Shown here: piece after piece, positions 12,074-14,972 of the stretch
Layout: each line of letters starts with the position of its first letter
How positions within the stretch are numbered: the first letter of the stretch is position 1
Assembly (NCBI GenBank): GCA_025774865.1
Contig: JALGZO010000225.1
Location: 1-19,648 of the forward strand
Reading direction: 5' to 3'
Source of the DNA: a bacterium
GTDB taxonomy: Bacteria > ARS69
Length of the DNA stretch: 19,648 bases
Position numbers and translations under genes: made by a program
Notes under the pieces: model-generated
Database searches by the model: none
The model's input: only the letters and a program-made list of their open reading frames with translations
What the model was told of the DNA's origin: nothing

Positions 12074-12615
12074 GTCCCCGACCCCTCCCTTTCCAACGCC
12101 CGATCGATAGCCCCGCGCAGCTTCTCGAACGTGTCGCTGAGCCTCTCGGGCAGCACCTTCGTCTGCCCCACGACCGGCATGAAGTTCGTGTCACCCAGCC
12201 ACCGCGGTACGAAGTGCAGGTGGAGATGATCGGGGATTCCAGCGCCTCCGGCGCGCCCGAGATTCATTCCCAGGTTGAACCCCTGCGCATTCATCCCGCC
12301 GGACAAGGCGATTTCGAGCAGCGACGCAAGCCGCAACAACTCTGCCCGCTCCACATCCGTCAGCTCGGCGAGCCGGGGTACGTGACGAAACGGCACCACC
12401 ATCGCGTGACCGTTGTTGTACGGATAGAGGTTCAGCACGATGTAGCACGTTTCGCCCCGGTGGACGACGAGGTTCTCCGGACCGTCCTCCGCCTTCGTCA
12501 ACGCGCAGAAAACGCACTCGTCCTTCTCCTCTCCGATGGACGTGAGGTATTTCATCCGCCACGTCGCCCAGAGACGCTCGAGCAGGGTTCCTTCCGTCGT
12601 GCCGTCTTCCTTCAT
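12070..12615 (-). CDS. HIT-family nucleotide hydrolase/phosphorylase
   Basis: This 181-residue protein carries the histidine-triad motif HLHLHFVPRW at about 132-141, the AMP-transferring site of the superfamily. An N-terminal CVFC at about 34-37 suggests a metal site. VVHRGETCYIVLNLYPYNNGHAMVVP and a C-terminal segment containing VGQTKVLPE are typical of the branch that includes diadenosine tetraphosphate phosphorylase (Rv2613c-like). It probably degrades Ap4A or related adenylylated nucleotides in the cytoplasm; the exact substrate is not visible. Its ATG overlaps the stop of the GlmU-domain gene (ATGA), and its stop overlaps the LytR_C start (GTGA), indicating coupled translation. Confidence 0.88.
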   Translation of the reverse strand: MKEDGTTEGTLLERLWATWRMKYLTSIGEEKDECVFCALTKAEDGPENLVVHRGETCYIVLNLYPYNNGHAMVVPFRHVPRLAELTDVERAELLRLASLLEIALSGGMNAQGFNLGMNLGRAGGAGIPDHLHLHFVPRWLGDTNFMPVVGQTKVLPERLSDTFEKLRGAIDRALEREGSGT

Positions 12616-13367
12616 TGGATCTGTTCCGCCGGTCCGGTGCGCCTCGCCAAAATGTCGGCGATCGCCCGCAGCTGGTCACGATCGTTCACGCCGAGAATCT
12701 CTTCGGGAAGAGCCGCCGGCACCGCGATGACGGTTTTGCCCTCGTCGCGCAGAATCTTGACGGAATCCGTGAGGTAGTACTCACCTTGCGCGTTGTCGTT
12801 CTGGATCTTCCCGAGCACCGAGACGAGTTCCGCCGCCTCGAAGCAATACACGCTCGAGTTGACTTCGTCGACGCCGCGTTGCTCTGGAGTGGCATCCTTC
12901 TCTTCGACGATACCGAGAAACTCCCCCGTCTCCGAACGCAACACCCTCCCGTAGCCGGACGGATCCGGAAGCCGCGCCGTGAGTACCGTGACGGCAGCAC
13001 CTTCCTCGCGGTGGCGGCGGCGTAGCGTCGCCAGGGTGTCGCCCTTCAGGAGCGGAACGTCACCGGCCAGGACGACCACCTCGCCGGCGAACCCACGCAG
13101 CTGGGACTCGGCGCGCCGAACGGCGTCGCCGGTTCCGGTGCGCTCGGGTTGCTCGACGAACTCCCACCCATCGGACGCGAACCTCTCTCGGACGAGCCCC
13201 GCACCCTTGCCGACGACTACCACGATGCGGTCGACTCCCGACTCCGTCGCCGCGCGCCCGACGTGCGCGAGGAGCGGCTTCCCTCCGACTTCGTGGAGCA
13301 CCTTCGGCAGGTCCGAATTCATGCGCTTGCCCTCGCCCGCCGCGAGAATGATCGCCATCCCCTTCAT
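12612..13367 (-). CDS. GlmU-like UDP-GlcNAc pyrophosphorylase, uridylyltransferase domain only
   Basis: This 251-residue nucleotidyltransferase matches the N-terminal half of GlmU, which makes UDP-GlcNAc from GlcNAc-1-P and UTP for peptidoglycan and LPS. Visible motifs are LAAGEGKRM with DLPKVLHEVGGKPL (nucleotide-binding loop), AGDVPLL, GYGRVLR, EEKDATPEQR, EVNSSVYCF and NDNAQGEYYLTD, the last being GlmU-specific, plus GVNDRDQL. The left-handed beta-helix acetyltransferase domain of full GlmU (about 450 residues) is absent, because the HIT gene starts at once. GlcN-1-P acetylation would therefore need another enzyme. Start choice is open: ATG 13367, 3 nt after the old panC stop codon, or ATG 13358 (MAIILAAGEG), which has AGGGG at better spacing. 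Confidence 0.88.
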   Translation of the reverse strand: MKGMAIILAAGEGKRMNSDLPKVLHEVGGKPLLAHVGRAATESGVDRIVVVVGKGAGLVRERFASDGWEFVEQPERTGTGDAVRRAESQLRGFAGEVVVLAGDVPLLKGDTLATLRRRHREEGAAVTVLTARLPDPSGYGRVLRSETGEFLGIVEEKDATPEQRGVDEVNSSVYCFEAAELVSVLGKIQNDNAQGEYYLTDSVKILRDEGKTVIAVPAALPEEILGVNDRDQLRAIADILARRTGPAEQIQ

Positions 13368-13370
13368 CCC

Positions 13371-13499
13371 CTAGCCCCGCTCCCCTTCGACCGAAGCCGC
13401 CAGCGCCACGACATCGCCGACCGTGGATTCGCCCAGGAACACGTTGTCGATGAGGCGGGCCCTGCCCACGCGGGCCGCTACCGCCAGCAAAGCCGGCTC
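13371..13499 (-). pseudogene. panC: Displaced C-terminal fragment of PanC in a different frame
   Basis: From 13499 leftwards the minus strand encodes EPALLAVAARVGRARLIDN and about 23 more residues to TAG at 13371. PALLAVAA..G..RLIDN is the conserved C-terminus of pantothenate synthetase. It is in a different frame from the rest of panC and lies 3 nt before the GlmU-domain start, as expected for the original end of panC. It shows that the panC ORF stopping at 13478 is truncated by a deletion, not by natural shortness. Confidence 0.8.
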
Positions 13500-14149
13500 G
13501 ACGCCTCGCGGTACGCAGCCTCGACCTCGCGCAGGCCACGTGAAAGCGCGAGCGACGCCTCCCGTTCATCGGCCGTCAGATACCGGTTCCTGGAGCTCAA
13601 CGCGAGCCCGTCGGCGTCCCGGACCGTCGGAGCCACGACGATCTCACCGGGCAGATTCAGGTCCCGAGCGAGTCGTTGCACGAGAATCGCTTGCTGCGCA
13701 TCCTTCTGGCCGAACACCGAGAAATCGGGCCGGACGATGTTCAGCAGCTTCGTCACCACGAGGGCCACGCCGTCGAAGTGCCCGGGGCGGCCAGCCCCGC
13801 ACAGAGGCGCCGACAGCGCCTCGACCCGCACGATCGTTGCGAAGCCCTCGGGGTACATTTCGGCGACGGACGGCGAGAAGTAAAGGTCGACGCCGGCGTC
13901 CAGCGCCACCTCGAGATCCGACTTCGCCGCCCGGGGGTATGTCTCGAAATCTTCGCCGGGGCCGAACTGGACCGGATTCACGAAGACGGACAGAACCACG
14001 TAATCGGCGCGCTGGCGCGCGAGCCGGATGAGCGAGAGGTGCCCTTCGTGCAGCGCCCCCATCGTGGGAACGAATCCTATGGTGCGCCGCTGCTTCCGTG
14101 CATCGGCGACCGCGGCCCGGACGTCGTCAATTCGGGCGGCGTCCCGCAC
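13478..14149 (-). CDS. panC: Pantothenate synthetase, truncated by an internal out-of-frame deletion
   Basis: PanC joins pantoate and beta-alanine using ATP, the last step of vitamin B5 synthesis. The catalytic domain is intact: FVPTMGALHEGHLSLI (HxGH-type motif), SVFVNPVQFGPGEDF, GRPGHFDGVALVVTKL, FGQKDAQQ and LALSSRNRYL. After EAAYREAS (near 13500) the frame runs into SRLCWR and a stop at 13478. About 45-50 residues of the C-terminal domain expected from E. coli PanC (283 residues) are missing, and the true C-terminus survives in another frame (13371-13499). The junction lies near GTCGAG (13497-13502). The resulting 223-residue protein lacks most of the C-terminal domain and is probably impaired. 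I chose GTG 14149, with GGAGG 7 nt upstream, over ATG 14203. It overlaps panB by 23 nt. Confidence 0.85.
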   Translation of the reverse strand: MRDAARIDDVRAAVADARKQRRTIGFVPTMGALHEGHLSLIRLARQRADYVVLSVFVNPVQFGPGEDFETYPRAAKSDLEVALDAGVDLYFSPSVAEMYPEGFATIVRVEALSAPLCGAGRPGHFDGVALVVTKLLNIVRPDFSVFGQKDAQQAILVQRLARDLNLPGEIVVAPTVRDADGLALSSRNRYLTADEREASLALSRGLREVEAAYREASSRLCWR

Positions 14150-14972
14150 GGGGAGCCCTCCGATCGGACGAGCTATAGCTGTGATCGAGGTCGGGGAACG
14201 CACCTTCCTTCACTTCACGTCGGAACCGCCCGATCGCGTCGATCATTTCGTCGTTCAGGTTCGCGTACCGCTTGACGAACTTCGGCTCGAGGTGCGCCTC
14301 GATCCCGAGCAAATCGTGGAACACGAGAACCTGTCCGTCGCACTCGGGACCGGCACCGATCCCGATGGTGGGGATCGCGAGCGAGCCCGTGATCTCCCCG
14401 GCGATCTCGTGGGGAATGCCTTCGAGCACCAGCGAGAAGCACCCAGCGCGCTCGAGCAGGCCGGCGTCCTCGAGAATCCGCTTACGGGAGTCCTCGGTGC
14501 GCCCCTGGACGCGGAAGCCCCCGAAACGATGAACCGACTGCGGCGTGAGGCCAAGGTGCCCCATGACCGGGATGGAGGCGTCGGTCAGCGCACCCACCGT
14601 GTTCAGGAATTCACGACCACCCTCGATCTTCACGGCCTGGGCGCGGCCCTCCTTGATGAGACGACCGGCGTTCGCCACCGCTTCCGCCGTCGACACCTGG
14701 TAGGAGAGGAACGGCATGTCCGCGACGACGAGGCAGTGAGGGTCCGCGCGGCGCACGAGGCGGGCGTGATAGGTGACGTCTTGGACCGTCACCGGCAGGG
14801 TGTTTTCGTGACCCTGAATCACCATTCCGAGGGAGTCGCCGACGAGGATGACGTCGATCCCGGCGGCATCGACCACCCGCGCCGAATGGTAGTCGTACGC
14901 CGTTACCATCGTGATCTTCTCGCCCTTCTTCTTCATTGAAAGAAGGGTGCGTACGGTCACTGCCGTTGTCAT
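14127..14972 (-). CDS. panB: 3-methyl-2-oxobutanoate hydroxymethyltransferase
   Basis: PanB adds a hydroxymethyl group from methylene-tetrahydrofolate to alpha-ketoisovalerate, the first committed step to pantothenate. The 281-residue protein shows the family pattern in order: VTAYDYHSARVVDAAGID, DVILVGDSLGMVIQGH (metal-binding Asp), VVADMPFLSYQ, AVKIEGG, PVMGHLGLTPQS, GRTEDSRKR, LEGIPHEIA, TIGIGAGPECDGQVLV and a FVKRYAN segment. ATG 14972 has GGGAGG 7 nt upstream. A gap of 100 nt separates it from the kinase gene, with a hairpin and a possible weak promoter (14997-15026). The folate cofactor links it loosely to folB and folK upstream. Confidence 0.96.
   Translation of the reverse strand: MTTAVTVRTLLSMKKKGEKITMVTAYDYHSARVVDAAGIDVILVGDSLGMVIQGHENTLPVTVQDVTYHARLVRRADPHCLVVADMPFLSYQVSTAEAVANAGRLIKEGRAQAVKIEGGREFLNTVGALTDASIPVMGHLGLTPQSVHRFGGFRVQGRTEDSRKRILEDAGLLERAGCFSLVLEGIPHEIAGEITGSLAIPTIGIGAGPECDGQVLVFHDLLGIEAHLEPKFVKRYANLNDEMIDAIGRFRREVKEGAFPDLDHSYSSSDRRAPRAGRRPN
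14157..14161 (-). promoter_or_regulatory. Ribosome binding site deciding the panC start
   Basis: GGAGG with a 7-nt spacer to GTG 14149, inside the 3' end of panB. It gives about 24 residues before GFVPTMG, the usual distance in PanC. Confidence 0.5.

Follow-up and report, generated by a model that had tools for sequence, protein, structure and literature searches.

The panC gene of the window, by which we mean the whole 19,648-nt stretch of DNA analyzed, is broken in the assembled sequence by an out-of-frame internal deletion that has left its C-terminus behind. This observation, which had been made in an initial annotation, is confirmed, and the interpretation given there is partly supported. 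The phylum relatives are intact and there is no second copy in the assembly. We consider it somewhat more likely that the gap is an artefact than that it is a true deletion.

Structure of the interrupted panC gene

The features referred to below are as follows.

13371..13499, minus strand: panC 3′ remnant in another frame, with the native stop (translation, protein and profile matches)
13478..13480, minus strand: premature TAG stop that follows the junction in the wrong frame (translation, ORF list)
13481..14149, minus strand: panC 5′ part, 223 codons, N-terminal domain with HIGH-like motif and SSRN
13497..13502, minus strand: junction region GTCGAG, where ~121 nt of the homologs are absent (sequence and alignment with relatives)
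14127..14972, minus strand: panB, intact and overlapping the panC start (full-length matches to TIGR00222 and PRK00311, both above cut-off, and to PF02548)

Translation of the three minus frames, along with the ORF list, showed that panC starts with GTG at 14149 and reads normally through EAAYREAS, after which its 5′ part ends with EAAYREASSRLCWR and the TAG at 13480-13478. The last ~8 residues before this stop are out of register with homologs. The conserved end (PALLAVAARVGRARLIDNVFLG...) is encoded in another frame at 13499-13371, which reads EPALLAVAARVGRARLIDNVFLGESTVGDVVALAASVEGERG up to its stop; the same translation thus bore out the stop after EAAYREAS and the displaced end reported initially. 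Alignment with the relatives showed a complete set of N-terminal domain motifs, and neither half of the gene has visible decay. The 3′ remnant is 71% identical over 28 residues to the end of the PanC of one relative (G002) and had only a weak profile match, to positions 261-283 of the PanC-containing profile PRK13477.

Assignment of the gene to the PanC family is based on TIGR00018 (264.5 bits against a cut-off of 212.75; profile positions 5-218 of 283) and PF02569 (292.6 bits against a cut-off of 20.7; positions 5-206 of 268). The match to TIGR00018 stops at position 218, and there is no full-length open frame that includes the C-terminal domain.

The size of the gap was determined from the distance between the SSRN and LIDN motifs, which is 143 nt in the window and typically 261-267 nt in 28 intact PanC genes (the four homologs from the same phylum have 264, 264, 261, and 285 nt). 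The excess of the 28 homologs over the window is 115-142 nt, with most at 118-124 nt. Since the change of frame requires a missing length of 1 modulo 3, we place it at ~121 nt (118-124), or ~40 codons of the C-terminal domain, and the 140-150 nt (45-50 residues) estimated earlier is too large. In alignments with the relatives the missing residues form the stretch from the helix after the SSRN motif to the last strand, a segment found in every intact PanC homolog examined.

The hexamer GTCGAG is present at the junction (13502-13497), as initially noted; counted over both strands, the window contains it 39 times, and the supposed second copy of the repeat would lie inside the missing sequence. 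No long repeat that might explain a misjoin was found at the junction, and the hairpin strength there does not exceed that of shuffled sequence (z -0.53).

Copy number and relatives

The initial annotation proposed a search of the genome for a second panC. In the organism's own 4.7 Mb assembly (92.65% complete) PF02569 matched in one place only, and no intact second copy was found. When the same assembly was searched with the G002 residues that correspond to the gap, only the remnant and chance matches came back. The junction region, used as a DNA query, matched itself alone at a meaningful E-value. One match to the missing segment, on contig C733 (E 0.012), was dismissed as chance: its frame is the wrong one, and the longer open frame around it (259 residues) has no panC sequence.

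The comparison with relatives that had also been proposed was made in a phylum sample of five genomes including the window's own (G000), all of one family and each of its own genus. The four other genomes have one panC each, full length and open. The matches listed in the scan for related loci were all more distant PanC proteins (61% identity at best), and a single relative (53%) came from the viral scan. Among the homologs examined we found no natural variant kept at the shortened length of the window copy; a 224-residue frame in G024 was rejected as such a variant since it is cut by a contig end.

panB and the remainder of the pathway

The full-length matches to TIGR00222, PRK00311, and PF02548 agree with the initial description of panB as intact. 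The gene is likewise intact in G002, G003, and G004 and is cut by a contig end in G001. Four of the five phylum genomes, the window's own among them, encode a type III pantothenate kinase. A search for a pantothenate transporter had also been suggested; no PanF above the curated cut-off was found in the five phylum genomes, although weaker members of the sodium-symporter superfamily are present. A true loss of panC would be without rescue by PanF above cut-off or by a second panC.

The five genomes have retained panB and panC but have no match to PanD (aspartate decarboxylase, PF02261) or to the C-terminal domain of ketopantoate reductase (PF08546); other enzymes probably supply beta-alanine and pantoate in these organisms. 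The gene after panC (12612-13367) encodes a 251-residue nucleotidyltransferase (NTP_transf_3) that resembles the N-terminal half of GlmU, without the acetyltransferase domain.

Assembly quality and other lesions

The window belongs to a draft of 785 contigs with an estimated contamination of 8.3%. Other lesions were sought by comparing 373 kb of this assembly with 1.6 Mb of the relatives, a sample that held 68 of its genes with a homolog in the phylum. Thirty-nine of the 68 are clean over >85% of their length in one frame, and most of the remainder are truncated at contig ends or have single-domain matches. The sampled neighbors have no decay. There is a second out-of-frame lesion in the sample, with a loss of a few residues, in a C25-peptidase-like gene (G000:C229 near 10829; L198:10829) that shares 46% identity with a G003 protein of 1345 residues. 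This lesion is modest evidence in favor of assembly or consensus error. Two-frame matches in L138 and L218 proved to be tandem paralogs, and the stops inside L217 and L138 precede the true starts; neither were counted as lesions. Published work attributes many apparent pseudogenes to assembly errors that vary with coverage and with the assembler used (PMC11017572).

Origin of the interruption

Because both halves of panC are undecayed and panB is intact, the lesion is either very recent or an artefact. We lean, with confidence slightly above even, toward an ordinary panC after panB in which the ~121-nt gap in the C-terminal domain would be an error of the draft assembly, possibly a misjoin or a consensus built on a small number of reads or on aberrant ones; the organism itself would have an intact PanC. 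The points for this reading are the four intact phylum genes, the lack of a second copy or displaced segment, the lack of decay, the 785 contigs with their 8.3% contamination, the second lesion, and the published record of false pseudogenes produced by assembly. An artefact is at least as likely as a true deletion because there is no accompanying decay, the draft is fragmented, and a second out-of-frame lesion occurred in a sample of modest size. Against it, a block of ~121 nt is atypical compared with the usual one-base slip, the junction has no long repeat or unusual hairpin, the rate of lesions in the (small) sample is low, and real recent deletions have the same look.

A true, recent deletion of ~121 nt in the lineage or strain is a serious contender that we rate somewhat below even. 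PanC would then lack most of its C-terminal domain, and pantothenate or its precursors would have to come from neighbors. This is what the assembled sequence directly shows; the size fits slipped or illegitimate deletion at short homology, and the type III kinase that is kept could make imported pantothenate usable. However, neither panB nor the remainder of panC has decayed, PanF is lacking at the cut-off despite the weaker symporter relatives, and panC is kept in all the relatives. The fuller proposal, that a real and recent loss of PanC in the lineage left panB in place and made it dependent on pantothenate from the community, its phylum relatives all being makers, is tentative, and we give it a little less credence still.

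We regard it as very improbable that the gene is functional as it stands, with either the truncated protein active or ribosomal frameshifting joining the two parts. The N-terminal domain has its full motifs, and the existing structure of this part of the E. coli protein on its own (3guz, 176 residues) indicates that the domain can fold alone, so that partial folding is possible. However, ~40 codons are missing and programmed frameshifting is unable to supply them, which excludes it as a remedy. The presence of the segment in all intact homologs suggests that PanC without it would be inactive, and no variant of this length is retained elsewhere, the G024 copy being at a contig end. Our search found no literature on the activity of truncated PanC.

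A real deletion would add another example of recent auxotrophy for a vitamin among uncultured bacteria, whereas an artefact would caution against calling auxotrophy when a single gene is broken in a fragmented draft. In both cases this is an ordinary gene with an ordinary type of lesion, and events of this kind are well known.

Comparison with known PanC loci

The window gene resembles known PanC (TIGR00018, PF02569) in its N-terminal domain with the full set of motifs, in its place directly after panB, and in the conserved C-terminal end that is still encoded. It differs in that ~40 residues of the C-terminal domain are lacking and the frame is broken. The intact PanC proteins of the phylum (G002:C31, G001:C49, G003:C14, and G004:C242) are 62-67% identical to it over the shared part and also have panB directly upstream. 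Unlike the window copy, all four are encoded by continuous open frames of 317-335 codons.
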